Below, piece by piece: positions 1 through 5,513 of a stretch of DNA of 43,913 bases. Origin of the DNA: an uncultured Lachnospiraceae bacterium. Lineage in GTDB: Bacteria > Bacillota > Clostridia > Lachnospirales > Lachnospiraceae. The notes below the pieces were generated by a model. The model saw only the letters and a program-made list of their open reading frames with translations. It searched no databases and was not told the origin of the DNA. The stretch spans positions 1 to 43,913 of the forward strand of contig CANQHZ010000023.1 of NCBI GenBank assembly GCA_947623805.1, given 5' to 3'. The position numbers and the translations under genes are program-made. Each line of letters starts with the position of its first letter. Position 1 is the stretch's first letter.

Positions 1-131
1 GAGGATAGCTGCGGGGCATCCGCCTGTTGTGTCTGCCTGTTCTGCGTGTTCTCTGTGGCTTGCTTTTTCTCTGCCGTTTTAGTGCTGCTGTCGGCATAAG
101 CATTGTAAACGCTGTTTATTGTCATGGACAT
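1..131 (-). CDS. Cluster protein, N-terminal part only (DUF6033-like), runs off the window
   Basis: This is the first 43 codons of a gene that continues past the window edge. The start at 131 is preceded by AGGGGA at a good distance. A second ATG two codons later is possible. The visible peptide begins MSMTINSVYNAYADSS and then becomes rich in Thr, Gln, Lys and Asn. It resembles the N-termini of the genes starting at 2100 (MTINGISGVN) and 3041 (MAMEITNNYNAY), so I read it as another member of the same tandem family. There is no signal peptide in the visible part. It starts 36 bp after the stop of the 348-residue gene and is probably cotranscribed with it. Function unknown. Confidence 0.7.
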   Translation of the reverse strand, partial: MSMTINSVYNAYADSSTKTAEKKQATENTQNRQTQQADAPQLS

Positions 132-167
132 AGTATCATTCCCCTGCTTTGACTTTTATTTTACACC

Positions 168-1214
168 TCAATAGACTTCTGCCCCATACTCAATGTCAAT
201 TCCTTTATGTTCGTTCAGGACATAATCCTTTCCGCCGATTGTCACCGTCTGTCCTGGCTGGAATTTATCAAGCTGAAATGTCTTTCCGCTGATAAGCGCA
301 TTATACCGTTTGTCATATGTTTCCTTATCGAAAAGCGTCATAGCGTCCTCGTTGGCGGACAAATAATAACTTTGGGAGCGATTTCCCACCGTCACAGTGA
401 AAAAACCGTTTTGAATATCAACATCCGTCAATTTCTGCCTGATTTCTTTCTGACTGTAACGCTGTTCAATGCTCCATACATTCCCATGCGCTACATCCTC
501 CCAAAACTCCGCATACTCCACTGCTTCCTTGTCAATGCGTTCTTTCCCAAAATTGGCAAATGTGCCTGCGCTTAATGAAGATCCCATCGAAAGCACAGTA
601 TGATTTCTGCCGTCCTTCCCCTTGAACTGATAATATGAATAGCTGTCAAAACGCACCTCGTTATCCTTTACGGACATCTGTTTGGGATTGTGGATTCCCA
701 GCGCATTATTTACATCATCTGGATTAAAATACATCTTTTCACCAACGGGATGGCTTCCAGCGTACTTGCCATTGCTTCTATATACGTTCTCGCGCCCCTG
801 AAAATAAGTCGATCTTCCGTCATAGCCAAGCGTATAGCTGTCATATTTTTTGATTGCATCCAGTATTTGCTGCCCTGAATAAAACGGTCTTCTTTGGTTT
901 GGTCTTGCGCCCGCCAAAGTTCCCTGCCTTGTATAAAGCTTCGATTCTGTACGGTTTCCCCTGTGGTAAAGGACGCCGTCCTTCATATATGTTTTGGAAT
1001 ACTTATTGACGCGGTTTCTGTCCGCATTTTTATTTCCTACGTGGTAAAGGACGCCGTCCTTCATATATGTTTTGGAATACTTATTGACACGATTCCAGTT
1101 CGGCATATTTGCACTCCCGACATTCCTGCTTCCAAACATTCCTGACATTGTGGAATGTCGGTTAAAAAAGCTGCTGCCCATAAAATTATTAAAGAAATTT
1201 CCATTGATTCTCAT
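168..1214 (-). CDS. Unknown 348-residue protein with a 26-residue tandem repeat
   Basis: I do not recognise the family. The N-terminus (MRINGNFFNNFMGSSFF) is Asn, Phe and Gly rich and lacks a Sec signal peptide. Two copies of RVNKYSKTYMKDGVLYH lie about 26 residues apart near residues 42-85, encoded by a 78-bp direct repeat. The remainder (about residues 110-348) is mixed alpha/beta with many Tyr residues and no membrane segment. The start is supported by AAGGAGGG just upstream. It is the third complete gene of the tandem cluster and shares the upstream word GGAAATGGATTTCAAGCT with the leader of the 2100 gene. Its role is unknown; expression together with its neighbours under the LytTR system is an inference from position. 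Confidence 0.85.
   Translation of the reverse strand: MRINGNFFNNFMGSSFFNRHSTMSGMFGSRNVGSANMPNWNRVNKYSKTYMKDGVLYHVGNKNADRNRVNKYSKTYMKDGVLYHRGNRTESKLYTRQGTLAGARPNQRRPFYSGQQILDAIKKYDSYTLGYDGRSTYFQGRENVYRSNGKYAGSHPVGEKMYFNPDDVNNALGIHNPKQMSVKDNEVRFDSYSYYQFKGKDGRNHTVLSMGSSLSAGTFANFGKERIDKEAVEYAEFWEDVAHGNVWSIEQRYSQKEIRQKLTDVDIQNGFFTVTVGNRSQSYYLSANEDAMTLFDKETYDKRYNALISGKTFQLDKFQPGQTVTIGGKDYVLNEHKGIDIEYGAEVY
963..1091 (-). repeat. 78-bp tandem direct repeat inside the 348-residue gene
   Basis: A block of about 51 bp at 963-1013 recurs at 1041-1091 with one visible mismatch; the period is 78 bp, so the reading frame is kept. Because the copies are almost identical at the DNA level, the duplication looks recent. 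Confidence 0.9.
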
Positions 1215-1272
1215 AGCTTTTCCCTCCTTGCGCTTAACAGCTTGAAATCCATTTCCTAACTCACATCAAAGC

Positions 1273-2100
1273 TTACAGCCTTACGTCTACATGGGCATAT
1301 ACAGCGCTCTGCTGCTCTGCGGGAGCTTCTGCGTCCAAAAGGGGTTCGGAAGCGTCTGTGCCTTTACTGGTTTTATTGCTGTCCGCATGAACGCTGTCTG
1401 GCTGCTCATTTTCTGATACATTGTCTTTTGTCTTTTCTTCTTCGGCATCTGACGCGTTGGTGTCTTTGTCTGCTGCCTGTTCATCGACTTTCTTGGCTTC
1501 TTCTAATGCCTTATTCGCTTCACCAAGCGTTTCTGCTTGCGCCTTGGTAACATCCATTGCTTTCTGTTCTACTTCGGCAAGCTCTGCTTTCTTTCCCTCT
1601 GTATTAGCTGTCTTCCCGCCTGTCGCGCGGGCTTCATCAAGCTTAATCTCTATTTCCAGAACTCCCGCCCTGCCCTCAAAGGCTGATGCGACACTGCCTT
1701 GGATTTTTGCCTGCTTTAAGGATGTATCCGCTGAAATCATCGCTGCCATATTTGCCTGAGAAATTCCCGCGCTCCTGCTGTCCGCATTTGCGCCCTTGCC
1801 GTCAAGCATATCATCCATGGAAGAACCTTTTGCCTGCTGCTTTTCTGAGCGTTCCGCTCCGCGCTGTTCAATCTGGTGCTGTCTGAGCTGCATATTCAGG
1901 TCGCTTATCTGCTGCTGTATTTCCTGACGCTTCTTCATCTTCTCTTCCAGTGTCATTTCTTCGTTGGAAGAAAGCTCCTGTAGCTGTTTCTGCGCATTGG
2001 CAATCTGGTTTTGAATGTTCCTGCTGTATGAGTCCATTGTCTGATTCATTCCCATCTGCGCTTTCTGCGTGTTTACTCCGCTGATTCCGTTAATTGTCAT
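1273..2100 (-). CDS. Coiled-coil protein, possibly FlxA-like, cluster member
   Basis: A 275-residue protein starting at MTINGISGVN. The frame is open further upstream, but the start at 2100 follows GAGGAG and a conserved hairpin, so I prefer it. Residues about 20-75 form a strongly predicted coiled coil (repeating Gln, Leu, Lys, Glu; LQELSSNEEMTLEEK), which resembles FlxA-like proteins; I am not sure of that assignment. Two Ala/Glu/Lys-rich helical stretches follow (about 105-215), and the C-terminal 60 residues are acidic and low complexity. There is no signal peptide or membrane segment. It lies between the 276-residue and 348-residue cluster genes, in the same direction, with a leader almost shared with the 3041 gene. 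Function unknown. Confidence 0.8.
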   Translation of the reverse strand: MTINGISGVNTQKAQMGMNQTMDSYSRNIQNQIANAQKQLQELSSNEEMTLEEKMKKRQEIQQQISDLNMQLRQHQIEQRGAERSEKQQAKGSSMDDMLDGKGANADSRSAGISQANMAAMISADTSLKQAKIQGSVASAFEGRAGVLEIEIKLDEARATGGKTANTEGKKAELAEVEQKAMDVTKAQAETLGEANKALEEAKKVDEQAADKDTNASDAEEEKTKDNVSENEQPDSVHADSNKTSKGTDASEPLLDAEAPAEQQSAVYAHVDVRL

Positions 2101-2102
2101 TG

Positions 2103-2191
2103 TCAATTCTCCTCGTTTTCCGAAGGAAAATGCGCGCCTTGCGGGCAGAGGATTTTCCTCCCTGAATTTGATAGCTTGAAATCCGTTTCCT
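2103..2191 (-). promoter_or_regulatory. Conserved leader with hairpin and RBS, copy 1
   Basis: Reading the minus strand toward the start at 2100, three blocks appear: GGAAACGGATTTCAAGCT (about 2173-2190), AGGAAAAT (2152-2159), and the hairpin ATTTTCC-TTC-GGAAAAC (2115-2131), followed at once by the GAGGAG ribosome binding site. AGGAAAAT is a perfect 8-base complement of the left arm of the hairpin (ATTTTCCT), so the two pairings exclude one another. The leader of the 3041 gene keeps the same blocks in the same order. A translation or transcription switch is inferred, not shown. Confidence 0.55.
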
Positions 2192-2210
2192 GTTTTCAAT
2201 CCAAAAGCTT

Positions 2211-3041
2211 TTATATCTGCATATCAAAATTGTTACCTGACACAACAGGATTTTTTACCTTATCGGGCTGTTCCTGCGCTTCTTCTTTTGCCGCATTGAT
2301 AAAAATCTTCATGTCATCATCATTAAAATAAATCTTTCCGTCGTCCGCATTTTCCAGCTTTTCTGAAAACAGCTTTTCAGCCTTATCCTGTGCAGTATCA
2401 GATTTGACAACAACAATGCTGCCCTGATCCTGACTGTCTTTTGTCTTTTTTGCTTCTTCGGCTTTTTCTTCTAACTGTTCCGTAAGCTGCTCTGCCTTTT
2501 TACGGGCATTTTCGCGGGTTTTTTCTATCTGCTTTTTGGAATTTTCTTCTGCTTCCTTGCGGAGTTTTTCATTTAATTCGTCCTTTTTTATTGTCATAGC
2601 TGTATGGCAATATTTTCCATTGGCATCTATGTAGCTGTGCCTATATACTACAACACGCCCACTGGCTCTACACATATTCTCACGCCATTGCGTCATTTTC
2701 TCAACACCTTGTATTAGCTCTTTCATTTCCTTTTCCTTTGCGGGATCATTTTGCATTTTCTCCAAAAGTTTCGGGTTAATAGTCAATGTCTTACCCGTTT
2801 TATCAGTGGCATAGCTATTCCCAATGCGAAATTCTACGCTTGGCGCGAGCTTTTCTAATTCTTTCATGTACTCCGCTGTGCTGTTTGCCTTGCTGCTTTC
2901 TGTGTTGGAATTTTTCCGTGCAGCCGTCATTTCCGATACTTCCGATTTTGAAGCTGCTTTCTGCTTTGCTGTTTCCTGTTGTTTTTGCGTCGCATAGGTA
3001 TTCTCATATGCGTTATAATTGTTTGTAATCTCCATTGCCAT
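2211..3041 (-). CDS. DUF6033-like protein, first full-length gene of the cluster
   Basis: A 276-residue protein, MAMEITNNYNAYENTYATQ onward. The start at 3041 follows AAGGAGG with ideal spacing; upstream codons in the same frame are leader sequence. The N-terminal 60 residues are low complexity (Thr, Gln, Lys, Ser). A compact central domain (about 65-150) contains LEKLAPSVEFRIG and TLTINPKLLEKMQNDP, the type of sequence I associate with DUF6033. A highly charged coiled coil follows (about 160-215; repeated KK/EE). There is no signal peptide or membrane helix. It is the first sizeable gene after the paired repeats at 3255-3287 and the 14-codon ORF, so it probably heads the operon. Biochemical function is unknown. 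Confidence 0.8.
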   Translation of the reverse strand: MAMEITNNYNAYENTYATQKQQETAKQKAASKSEVSEMTAARKNSNTESSKANSTAEYMKELEKLAPSVEFRIGNSYATDKTGKTLTINPKLLEKMQNDPAKEKEMKELIQGVEKMTQWRENMCRASGRVVVYRHSYIDANGKYCHTAMTIKKDELNEKLRKEAEENSKKQIEKTRENARKKAEQLTEQLEEKAEEAKKTKDSQDQGSIVVVKSDTAQDKAEKLFSEKLENADDGKIYFNDDDMKIFINAAKEEAQEQPDKVKNPVVSGNNFDMQI

Positions 3042-3044
3042 AAT

Positions 3045-3175
3045 AAATCCTCCTTGTTTTCCGAAGGAAAATATCTGCCATACCTGCATGGATTGCGTCT
3101 TTGCAGGAACAATGTCCAACATGCTGTACAGGATTTTCCTTCTTGATAATTGAAATTATTTGAACTCCGTTTCCA
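3045..3175 (-). promoter_or_regulatory. Conserved leader with hairpin and RBS, copy 2
   Basis: It has the same block order as the leader at 2103-2191: GGAAACGGAGTTCAA (about 3161-3175), AGGAAAAT (3133-3140), then ATTTTCC-TTC-GGAAAAC (3056-3072) and AAGGAGG. The hairpin is base-for-base identical in the two leaders, and the competing AGGAAAAT/ATTTTCCT pairing is also kept, although the sequence between the blocks differs. A further 6-bp stem (CCTGCA/TGCAGG) lies between the blocks in this copy only. Confidence 0.55.
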
Positions 3176-3200
3176 TTTTCCCATTACTGCCACTTGCCAT
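3156..3200 (-). CDS. Possible 14-residue leader peptide
   Basis: ATG at 3200 is preceded by GAAGGG seven bases upstream and opens a frame MASGSNGKMETEFK ending with TAA at 3156. It lies between the paired repeats and the 276-residue gene. If the -10 proposed near 3221-3226 is right, the mRNA would begin only about 10-15 bases before this ATG. Its last codons overlap the conserved GGAAACGGA block, so translation could affect folding of the leader. No homolog is known to me; the ORF could also be fortuitous. Confidence 0.35.
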   Translation of the reverse strand: MASGSNGKMETEFK

Positions 3201-3220
3201 AATGTCACCCTTCTGTAAAA

Positions 3221-3287
3221 TTTATCGGAGGAAATTTACCAAAATTAACAAAATTGTTGTGAACAGCCCTTTTTATGTTGTGAACAG
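3221..3287 (-). promoter_or_regulatory. LytTR-type operator (two direct repeats, 21 bp apart) and weak promoter
   Basis: TGTTGTGAACAG occurs on the plus strand at 3255-3266 and again at 3276-3287, exactly 21 bp apart. In the direction of the downstream genes a weak -10 (GATAAA, 3221-3226) lies about 30 bp beyond the nearer repeat, and there is no recognisable -35. The promoter of the response regulator gene has the same geometry, repeats to -10. LytTR regulators are known to bind pairs of direct repeats two helical turns apart, so I infer that the regulator encoded at 4638-5408 activates this promoter. Confidence 0.6.
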
Positions 3288-3294
3288 TCTTTTT

Positions 3295-4641
3295 TTATTT
3301 AATCTGAAGCATAATGCTCACAATCACTTCGCCGTCCCGCTGTTCAAAAGATACGTCTCCCATATATTTTCTTGCAACCCTGCGTATATTTTTCAATCCT
3401 ATGCCATGTTCCCCGCTCTTTTTTGTTGTAAACGGCAGTCCGCTTTCCGAATCAATGTACAATTTACCCTGAAAGCTGTTTCGGATAATCAGCGTATATA
3501 CACTGTTTTGACGGAAGGAATATATCCTTATATACGGCTTATCTCCATTTGCCGACTCCATACAATTATTGAGCGCATTATATAAAATAACGCTGAGGTC
3601 AAACGCATTCAGCTTCGTATTTTCAGGATAATGGAAATCACAGCCGAACGCGATTCCCGCTTTCTCGGCTTCTTTCTTCTTTTCCAGCAAAATGATATCT
3701 GTGACAGGATTGCCTGTTTTTATTTCGGGCGTAAGCTCTTTCCATTCATCACTTAGCCTTTCCAAATATGCGCGGGCTTCCCCGCTGTTCTCAGTGCCGA
3801 TAAGACGCTCCAGTACCTGAATATGGTTTCCCATATCGTGGCGCATGGAACGGATGTCGCTGTAAAGCCTTTCCACCCCTTCAATGTGGATTTTCATATC
3901 ATTTATCTGGCTTGCAATAAGCTCCCTGTCCGACTGTTCCTCCTGCGATGTTTTCAGGCTTTGAAAAACAAAAATCATAACAAGGATTGCTGTTATAGAT
4001 ATGAGGTAATACAATATGCACAGTACATCATATATCCCCGCCATTCCTGATTTGACCTGATAAAACCGAAATATCGCGCTGCCAATCACCTCTGACAGCG
4101 ACGGGACAATCAATAAAAGCAGCTCCCTTATTCCCATGTACCTGTTTTTGCTCTCATATGTCCTATTAACTGTCCTGACTGACAGATATAAAAAGAGCGT
4201 GCAGAGAAAGATATTTAAAATCCTTACTGACGCATAGACTCCATACCACAGCCATTCCATCGCCGCAATTTTCTCACTCATAATCAACGGCTCAAAAAAA
4301 AGACTGTCTATTTTCCCAGCCAAGGCAGACGACAGCTCACATAAAGAAAAAAATGTAACCGAAAGGAAAATTTTCTGGTTTATATTTTTCCTGTCCTCTA
4401 TGCACATTACTATAAAAACTGCCAATATGCCCGCAAAATAAGCAAAAAAGTTATTTACCTGTACAGGCAGTCTATATAGGAAGACCAGCACAGCCAAATA
4501 GACTATTCCGACGCTGAAGGCTTTTTTCCGCTCCCACAAATAGGGCAAAACATATATGATTAGGCACACTGCCACGAAGATAAGCTGGATAATATCCGCG
4601 GCATAAGATGTGCCGTTCCACCATAGCTCCAGTCGGCTCAT
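3295..4641 (-). CDS. GHKL sensor histidine kinase, AgrC-like
   Basis: A 448-residue kinase. About six hydrophobic segments fill residues 15-225, with no large extracytoplasmic domain, as in AgrC-type peptide receptors. The dimerisation/phosphoacceptor helix contains RHDMGNHIQVLE (His in HDMGNH), the N box is NALNNCMESA, and the G box is GEHGIGLKNI, typical of the HATPase_c_5 group. Its ATG overlaps the TGA of the response regulator (ATGA), so the two are translationally coupled, regulator first. No agrB/agrD-like peptide genes are visible in the window, so the signal is unknown. The family normally phosphorylates a LytTR regulator, which is exactly what its neighbour is. Confidence 0.9.
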   Translation of the reverse strand: MSRLELWWNGTSYAADIIQLIFVAVCLIIYVLPYLWERKKAFSVGIVYLAVLVFLYRLPVQVNNFFAYFAGILAVFIVMCIEDRKNINQKIFLSVTFFSLCELSSALAGKIDSLFFEPLIMSEKIAAMEWLWYGVYASVRILNIFLCTLFLYLSVRTVNRTYESKNRYMGIRELLLLIVPSLSEVIGSAIFRFYQVKSGMAGIYDVLCILYYLISITAILVMIFVFQSLKTSQEEQSDRELIASQINDMKIHIEGVERLYSDIRSMRHDMGNHIQVLERLIGTENSGEARAYLERLSDEWKELTPEIKTGNPVTDIILLEKKKEAEKAGIAFGCDFHYPENTKLNAFDLSVILYNALNNCMESANGDKPYIRIYSFRQNSVYTLIIRNSFQGKLYIDSESGLPFTTKKSGEHGIGLKNIRRVARKYMGDVSFEQRDGEVIVSIMLQIK

Positions 4642-5408
4642 TTGATTTCCATACCTTTCTTTGTAGTGTATTTCAAATATTTTTTCACAAAATCCGAATA
4701 ATTCGGCTTTGCAATCGGCACTGTTCCAATGCCCATTTCTACTGATGAGGCATCATATTTCTGTACATATTTAAAATGTATCAGGTACGACCTGTGCGAT
4801 CTGAAAAAATCTTCTCCCGCCTTTTTCTCCAAATCTGAAATTTTTCCATAATACTCAACCGCGCCGTCCACCATATGGACAATGATTTTTCTATTGAACA
4901 CTTCAGCGTATATTATCTTTGCCAGCGAAAGCTTTGTATGGATTCCCGACATCTGCACCATAATATATTCTTCCTCATCAGCTTCCGCCAGCTTTCTGCC
5001 CTCGACCTTTTTTACTGCCTTTTTCAAAACGTCAAGAAATTTATCATCTGAAAAGGGTTTGACAATATAATTGAGCGCATCGACATCAAATGCCTGAAAA
5101 ACATATTCTTCAATCGCCGTGACAAATATAATGAGCGTGCTGTTATGCTGTTCCCGCAAAGTCCTTGCCGTTTCCATTCCATCAATTCCCGACATCTGTA
5201 TGTCTAAAAACAGGATATCTATATGAAATGCACTGTTCAGCAGTTCATTTCCTGAAGAAAATTTGCGTACCACTGCATTAGGCAATGCAGCTTTTATTTT
5301 TTCCTCAAGCATATCACACATAATCTGCTCGTCGTCGCAAACCGCTATGTAGACGGTATCATTGCTTATCAGTCTGACCGAAGCGCTCTTGGTGAAATTG
5401 TGATCCAT
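4638..5408 (-). CDS. LytTR-family response regulator
   Basis: A 256-residue regulator. The receiver domain has the acidic pair in AVCDDEQ (residues 25-26), the phosphoacceptor Asp69 in LFLDIQMSG, and the conserved Lys in NYIVKPF. The C-terminal LytTR DNA-binding domain (about 150-250) includes FFRSHRSYLIHFKYV. About 18 residues precede the usual receiver start; the start at 5408 has AGGAGG eleven bases upstream, and an out-of-frame ATG lies closer to it. It is the first gene of the regulator-kinase operon. Its promoter carries the same paired repeats as the cluster at 1-3.2 kb, which suggests positive autoregulation and identifies that cluster as its likely target. Confidence 0.9.
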   Translation of the reverse strand: MDHNFTKSASVRLISNDTVYIAVCDDEQIMCDMLEEKIKAALPNAVVRKFSSGNELLNSAFHIDILFLDIQMSGIDGMETARTLREQHNSTLIIFVTAIEEYVFQAFDVDALNYIVKPFSDDKFLDVLKKAVKKVEGRKLAEADEEEYIMVQMSGIHTKLSLAKIIYAEVFNRKIIVHMVDGAVEYYGKISDLEKKAGEDFFRSHRSYLIHFKYVQKYDASSVEMGIGTVPIAKPNYSDFVKKYLKYTTKKGMEIK

Positions 5409-5447
5409 AAATGCATTGTCCTCCTGCTGTAGTTTCCTTAATATTTA

Positions 5448-5513
5448 ATTATATCATATATTTTTGGATTTCATTGCCTATGTTGTGAATGATACCTTGT
5501 TTTGTTGTGAATA
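5448..5513 (-). promoter_or_regulatory. Promoter of the regulator-kinase operon with LytTR-type direct repeats
   Basis: TGTTGTGAAT lies on the plus strand at 5481-5490 and 5503-5512, 22 bp apart. Toward the regulator gene there is a perfect -10 (TATAAT, 5448-5453), but the -35 position (5471-5476, CAATGA) is poor, as expected of an activator-dependent promoter. The nearer repeat ends a few bases upstream of that -35. The same ten-base word recurs at 3255 and 3276. Confidence 0.65.

Follow-up and report, generated by a model that had tools for sequence, protein, structure and literature searches.

What controls the genes at the end of an uncultured Lachnospiraceae contig, and is the adjacent two-component system their regulator? 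The window, by which we mean the whole 43,913-nucleotide stretch analysed here (contig CANQHZ010000023.1 of GenBank assembly GCA_947623805.1), carries in minus-strand order a regulator promoter, a LytTR response regulator gene, a GHKL histidine kinase gene, a cluster promoter, a DUF6033-like gene, a FlxA-like gene, a gene for a 348-amino acid (aa) protein and the start of a fourth gene. An earlier note on this DNA (the original prediction) proposed, from paired repeats, that regulator, kinase and cluster form one signalling circuit. We consider a LytTR-operator circuit very probable from the repeats and their recurrence in relatives. The best explanation of the locus, which we regard as probable, combines this circuit with use of the sigma factor FliA (sigma-28) at the cluster promoter; this judgement excludes the function of a C-terminal tag on the cluster products, which is weighed separately below. 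The elements that carry the circuit, the repeats being identified by word counts and sequence reading, are as follows.

5503 to 5511, minus strand: first half-site of the regulator promoter, TTCACAACA
5481 to 5489, minus strand: second half-site of the regulator promoter, TTCACAACA, at a period of 22
4638 to 5408, minus strand: LytTR response regulator, with receiver and LytTR domains (PF00072, PF04397)
3295 to 4641, minus strand: GHKL (AgrC-type) histidine kinase, overlapping the regulator gene by 4 bp (PF14501, PF14689)
3276 to 3284, minus strand: first half-site of the cluster promoter, TTCACAACA
3255 to 3263, minus strand: second half-site of the cluster promoter, TTCACAACA, at a period of 21

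The word TGTTGTGAAY, which the original prediction had counted four times in two pairs, does occur exactly four times in the window (3255-3264, 3276-3285, 5481-5490 and 5503-5512), against a mean of 0.15 and a maximum of 1 in shuffled sequences, none of 100 of which reached four. Tolerating one mismatch raises the count to 9, with 4.98 expected, and only the exact word stands out. The predicted start-to-start spacings of 21 and 22 bp are both correct, as is the placing of one pair upstream of the cluster and the other upstream of the regulator-kinase operon. On the minus strand, which is the strand of all genes concerned, the word reads [GA]TTCACAACA and the operator TTYACAACA-N12-TTYACAACA. 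Across the 3.96 Mb genome the exact pair (words 9-14 bp apart) has two places, both of them in the window, and the backwards pattern has none. The gap between the nine-mers is 12 bp at the cluster and 13 bp at the regulator, each pair lying upstream of the -35 position. In published LytTR operators 12 bp, or in some cases 11 or 13 bp, separate the repeats, which lie upstream of the -35 (PMC6193735; here and below, papers are cited for the part of their text that was accessible), and the proposal that these repeats bear the hallmark of LytTR operators agrees with this geometry.

Profile matches to Pfam bear out the gene calls for the regulator and the kinase. The regulator matches the receiver domain PF00072 (5.9e-19, 68.7 bits) and the LytTR domain PF04397 (2e-13, 50.8 bits), both above cut-off, which makes it a LytTR response regulator, and residues D25, D26, D69 and K117 are invariant across 22 aligned regulators of such modules. 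The kinase matches PF14501 (1.6e-23, 82.9 bits) and, narrowly, PF14689 (1.3e-06, 28.3 bits against a cut-off of 28.1); its GHKL ATPase domain is preceded by a histidine-bearing helix, as in AgrC-type kinases. By family, this would be a two-component system of the AgrCA type, in which the membrane GHKL kinase senses a signal and phosphorylates the LytTR regulator; a dimer of the regulator would then bind the TTYACAACA direct repeat before its own operon and before the adjacent cluster. LytTR Regulatory Systems (LRS) pair the regulator with a non-kinase membrane (inhibitor) protein.

This general kind of system, an AgrCA-like LytTR circuit, is already known. As in the AgrCA-type systems exemplified by AgrA of Staphylococcus aureus (PMC4227749), there is a GHKL membrane kinase, a LytTR regulator, operators made of direct repeats that precede a poor promoter and, probably, autoactivation; unlike those described there, the present system uses the word TTYACAACA, has cassettes of FlxA/DUF6033 type as targets and carries a sigma-28-type -10 at the target promoter. 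The published LRS (PMC6193735) are alike in having repeats 12 bp apart just upstream of the -35 and, presumably, in autoregulation, but the present regulator possesses a receiver domain and is paired with a GHKL histidine kinase, so that this system is not an LRS.

Conservation of the repeats in relatives was one point on which the original prediction could fail, and pairs before both units do recur in divergent genomes. In its exact original form the pair was found in 4 of the 98 genomes searched, all of one genus and including the source genome; the looser TTYACAACA pair was present in 10 of 38 genomes of the genus, at 34 places, and the reversed pattern in none of the 38. Most of the 40 stretches surrounding homologues of the regulator are ordered regulator, kinase, FlxA- or DUF6033-like gene. 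In a wider test, one genome per species (84,980 species) was searched with an alignment of 22 regulators and the best 80 of 524 loci confirmed from a capped candidate list were kept. These 80 were found through the regulator alone, at 45-99% identity, and are labelled mainly Lachnospiraceae, Eubacterium, Roseburia, Butyribacter, Acetatifactor and the like, the nearest being Lachnospiraceae metagenome-assembled genomes of isolates named 'Lapin' (rabbit, judged from the name only). A pair scoring at least 16 of 18 stands before the regulator at 55 of the 80 loci (reversed-motif control, 1/80) and behind the kinase at 44 of 74 (control, 0/74; the other six loci have no called kinase), and both places are occupied together at 38 of 74. 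Only scores of at least 16 were counted because the reversed control still reaches at least 15 of 18 in 12/80 and 5/74 regions. Among the 72 loci with at least 1.8 kb of DNA downstream, a FlxA-type open reading frame (ORF) lies within 2.5 kb at 58 and one of FlxA or DUF6033 type at 59, with neither type within that distance at 13. The period is 21 in 50 of 53 nonredundant promoters (33/35 regulator, 17/18 target). Chance and recent descent were considered as the source of the repeats and are ruled out by the reversed-motif control and by the divergence of the loci. Conservation thus upholds the single circuit that had been proposed; to call its target dedicated was too strong, as the genome has further modules with this operator word, and the cluster is partly characterised through its FlxA-family member.

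Could the repeats be bound by a different regulator, which merely also controls the two-component operon? A second LytTR protein using the same word is conceivable, for the genome encodes paralogues of the regulator at 52% and 61% identity (contigs C34 and C180), each behind the operator word. We nevertheless regard this as very unlikely, since 29 of the 34 places in the genus lie, in our reading, before a regulator or behind its kinase, all 10 genomes with the pair (of 38) also have a regulator of at least 46% identity, and the operator word changes beside some distant paralogues. Given the further modules with the same word, crosstalk between paralogous modules in this genome is likely. Two cases support the view that regulator and operator word change together: beside the more distant paralogue in L078 (38% identity) the word TTC[AG]C[AG]CC[CA], and at the second module of L060 (25%) the word ATTTGGTGC/AT[TC]CGGTG[TC], is common to both promoters with the geometry kept, and in both modules CGATA follows about 26-33 bp further on. 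A blind word-finding method gave no convincing shared word at the first paralogue of L047, the second of L052, both of L077, and L076; the method misses pairs whose copies differ, and scored 0 on L043 despite its visible pairs.

Which RNA polymerase reads these promoters? Downstream of the operators lie the following elements.

5448 to 5456, minus strand: putative extended -10 of the regulator promoter, TGATATAAT, its TATAAT 27 nt beyond the nearer repeat (sequence reading)
3245 to 3248, minus strand: putative sigma-28-type -35 of the cluster promoter, TTAA, 15 nt from the -10 octamer
3222 to 3229, minus strand: putative sigma-28-type -10 of the cluster promoter, TCCGATAA, 25 nt beyond the nearer repeat

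The suggestion of a -10 about 30 bp beyond each pair, behind a poor -35, is roughly right; the two -10 elements differ in kind, a point that the prediction had passed over along with the likely sigma-28 input. At the cluster, TTAA-N15-TCCGATAA matches a sigma-28 box, with three of four positions matching in the -35, for which the published layout is TAAA-N15-CCGATAT (PMC3720852); the TGATATAAT promoter of the regulator does not match such a box. Among relatives, a box resembling TCCGA[TA]A lies behind the operator in most promoters, and in most of these the -10 reads CCGATA or CCGAAA, 25-26 bp behind the operator. Two sets of promoters, thinned to below 70% identity (regulator promoters from 25 to 15 and from 55 to 35, targets from 27 to 13 and from 43 to 18), were compared. 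In the first, CGA stood at offset 27/28 in 13/13 target and 11/15 regulator promoters (shuffles, at most 3). This offset was picked after the first set, so that the second, which partly overlaps it, is the only test; there CGA stood at the same place in 17/18 target and 26/35 regulator promoters (shuffles, at most 4; mean 0.34 for the targets). In the four bases 15 nt upstream, T came first in 17/17 and A third in 13/17 target promoters of the second set, and in 11/13 and 12/13 respectively of the first. The genome also encodes a FliA/WhiG sigma factor (266 bits against a cut-off of 190), about 9 kb from flhA, and has eight flagellin matches. Of 18 flagellin starts read among 20 loci, 7, one of them in the source genome, have TAAA-N14-16-CCGATW within 450 nt upstream.

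From this promoter anatomy we consider it quite probable that sigma-28 is used at the target promoters. The regulator, bound at the cluster promoter, would help FliA RNA polymerase to start at TTAA-N15-TCCGATAA, and production of the cluster proteins is probably limited to cells that are building flagella and at the same time sense some signal. Precedents exist in Escherichia coli, where flxA is FliA dependent (PMC4183435) and CRP activates the sigma-28 promoter of aer from -49.5 (PMC2859248). The aer case is alike in that a flagellar-type gene receives a second input from an activator bound immediately upstream of its sigma-28 promoter; it is unlike the present one in that CRP acts there on a single gene, whereas here a LytTR response regulator would act on a family of cassettes with the regulator gene next door.

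An alternative is that the circuit is correct but the housekeeping sigma factor reads the cluster promoter, CCGA being an element contacted by the activator or the polymerase. LytTR promoters usually consist of direct repeats followed by a poor promoter (PMC6193735, PMC4227749), TATAAT comes right behind CGA, often overlapping the CGA region, in 15/35 regulator promoters (offsets 29-31), and the window's own regulator promoter is TGATATAAT. TATAAT is, however, absent from the target promoters (0/13 in the first set, 0/18 in the second), and their T-x-A, conserved at N15 from CCGA, is the published sigma-28 layout (PMC3720852); we consider housekeeping use at the cluster unlikely. Several observations do count against sigma-28 control. 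Regulator promoters generally lack the T-x-A -35 and 9/35 lack CGA at that place, while the window's regulator promoter has no CCGA in register and fits sigma-A better. Among the flagellin starts, the full pattern is missing in 11/18 and CCGATW in 8/18 (it is present in 10/18). Genome-wide, sigma-28 boxes number 44 in the source genome, hardly more than the 35 of the reversed control; some relatives show a clearer excess, G002 among them with 44 against 13. Because the T-x-A -35 is missing and TATAAT often overlaps, regulator promoters may be read by either sigma factor. For the target promoters, sigma-28 is the reading that we prefer.

What, then, would such a circuit produce? The genes behind the cluster promoter are listed below.

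3156 to 3200, minus strand: possible 14-codon leader ORF (MASGSNGKMETEFK) with a Shine-Dalgarno-like sequence (sequence reading)
2211 to 3041, minus strand: DUF6033-like gene, C-terminus NNFDMQI (PF19498, below cut-off)
1273 to 2100, minus strand: FlxA-like gene, C-terminus HVDVRL (PF14282, 1e-20)
168 to 1214, minus strand: 348-aa gene without a family in Pfam or PHROGs, ending GIDIEYGAEVY (a tag-like stretch that is not terminal)
1 to 131, minus strand: beginning of a fourth cluster gene (MSMTINSVYNAYADSS...), which the contig end truncates and which resembles a 252-aa ORF in L041

The cluster encodes small proteins that belong to several unrelated families and begin with sequences resembling M-x-I/V-N/T. 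The cluster had been described as uncharacterised, which holds for the 348-aa protein, without a Pfam family, and does not hold for the 275-aa FlxA-like protein, which matches PF14282 with 74.2 bits against a cut-off of 26.3. The DUF6033-like protein falls short of PF19498 membership (5.5e-05, 23.5 bits against a cut-off of 25); the relative L047 has two PF19498 proteins, at 47.8 and 132 bits. The 348-aa protein has relatives at 62-98% identity, and searches of Pfam and PHROGs gave no family for it and NCBIfam one line at E 0.022, far below cut-off. Neither it nor the FlxA-like protein matched any sequence profile from the PDB. E. coli FlxA, of the same PF14282 family, is known to be under sigma-28 control; it has 110 aa, lies in the cryptic prophage Qin and has no LytTR neighbour in the stretch seen, unlike the FlxA-like protein here with its regulator, kinase and partners. 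A search of E. coli FlxA against phages gave one record.

The products also share a feature at their ends. A C-terminal tag of the form hydrophobic-D-hydrophobic-x-hydrophobic occurs in unrelated families (FlxA, DUF6033, DUF3879 and others). The pattern [VILFM][DN][VILMF][RQKSTN][LIVA] ends 112 of 1754 distinct ORFs from 141 sequences (140 loci and the window), namely 65 FlxA-type, 29 DUF6033-type and 18 other ORFs. When any residue may stand fourth and D alone is accepted in place of [DN], the tag ends 49/59 FlxA-type, 22/35 DUF6033-type and 14/836 other ORFs at the 80 named loci; at least 12 of these 14 resemble cassette proteins by eye, a DUF3879 protein among them, and another of the 14, in L229, plainly has no relation to them. 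The tag of FlxA comes after a poorly aligning linker, and E. coli FlxA ends TIDIYV. The L041 ORF that resembles the fourth cluster gene ends GGRFDFSI. In Bacillus subtilis, yjfB belongs to the SigD regulon. Of 27 YjfB proteins read at 30 loci, out of 61 matches, 26 end in the tag with D and the other with N. A 103-aa ORF near fliA in the source genome (L113, 6022-6333, minus strand), without a Pfam match, ends GGFDMKI.

The tag might direct its proteins to a particular place, most probably the flagellar export apparatus or the flagellar base, but flagellar export or docking of the products is in our view a tentative and rather doubtful idea. It is rather unlikely, too, that this extreme C-terminal peptide, shared from Lachnospiraceae to E. 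coli by unrelated families under certain or probable control of the flagellar sigma factor (FlxA, DUF6033, DUF3879, YjfB and others), is a common signal that sends or docks them to the export apparatus; the cassettes would then be a hitherto unrecognised group of proteins delivered by the flagellum, with the LytTR sensor gating their release. It is quite possible, though short of probable, that the products remain cytoplasmic and act as motility brakes or as regulators of sigma factor or export (a role like that of FlgM), with the tag serving as a degron for a protease or as a peptide that docks onto a cytoplasmic partner. A conserved extreme C-terminus after a variable linker is also typical of degrons and docking motifs, and by eye, the only means used, we noticed no signal peptide; nothing on the other side is decisive, although multi-gene cassettes of several unrelated families seem excessive for a regulator. 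The flagellar interpretation has further difficulties: the terminal tag is missing from 13/35 DUF6033-type proteins and from the window's 348-aa protein, and among 65 good genomes FlxA occurs in 16/53 with FlhA against 1/12 without, which is not significant (p 0.16). The lone exception, G026, has FlxA and no FlhA, and has flagellins; counted as flagellate, it brings FlxA to 17/54 against 0/11 (p 0.054) and YjfB to 37/54 against 0/11 (p 2.4e-05), in tests that ignore the relatedness of the genomes.

In the open-licence literature we found no paper that joins FlxA-like proteins with LytTR, nor any on DUF6033, the FlxA-like protein or DUF3879, and for LytTR with sigma-28 only a genome survey turned up. 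A LytTR regulator on sigma-28-type promoters and a FlxA/DUF6033 regulon were thus not found there, and neither was the shared tag, at which no search was itself aimed. Orphan flagella-linked genes (FlxA, DUF6033 and DUF3879) of gut Lachnospiraceae, including Roseburia and Butyribacter, here gain a candidate regulator, operator and promoter class. The pairing of a LytTR response regulator with sigma-28 promoters, if true, would combine the sensing of the environment with the assembly of flagella in an AND gate. Should the tag be functional, it would account for the joint occurrence of unrelated families without known function, and it offers a route to the role of FlxA, an orphan in E. coli too.

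Several smaller features of the cluster deserve mention. Although unrelated, the two genes at the head of the cluster have a leader element in common, GGAAAATCC...TTTTCCTTCGGAAAAC...AGGAG, in similar form before each (2101-2165 and 3042-3130, minus strand). An RNA switch or a CsrA site was considered for these leaders and set aside, because they fold no better than shuffled sequences (z -0.89, -0.95 and 0.35) and an Rfam search gave no match at gathering score. In L177 the stretch of the possible 14-codon ORF between cluster promoter and first gene has, by eye, an in-frame insertion that gives a cysteine- and serine-rich version. The 348-aa protein contains a near-perfect internal duplication, encoded at 960-1100 (minus strand), in which a sequence like RVNKYSKTYMKDGVLYH occurs twice; it is single in L177.

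Five of the 34 pairs in the genus are extra operator copies. A near-identical orphan promoter of the regulator type (G000 C19:31759-31787, equal to L115 7760-7788, minus strand) has no regulator gene for about 1 kb behind it, which suggests a relic or a non-coding transcript. The pair on G028 C6, part of a tandem array that lacks a -10, was taken as unrelated. On G019 C59, TACGATAAAG follows the pair and the contig ends there. Two pairs on G023 C4 (L118) are not directly behind the module kinase and have CGAAATATAA behind them, which suggests a wider regulon in G023; they precede ORFs, with AGCGAAATATAA and TGCGAAATATAA behind, that resemble further cassettes.

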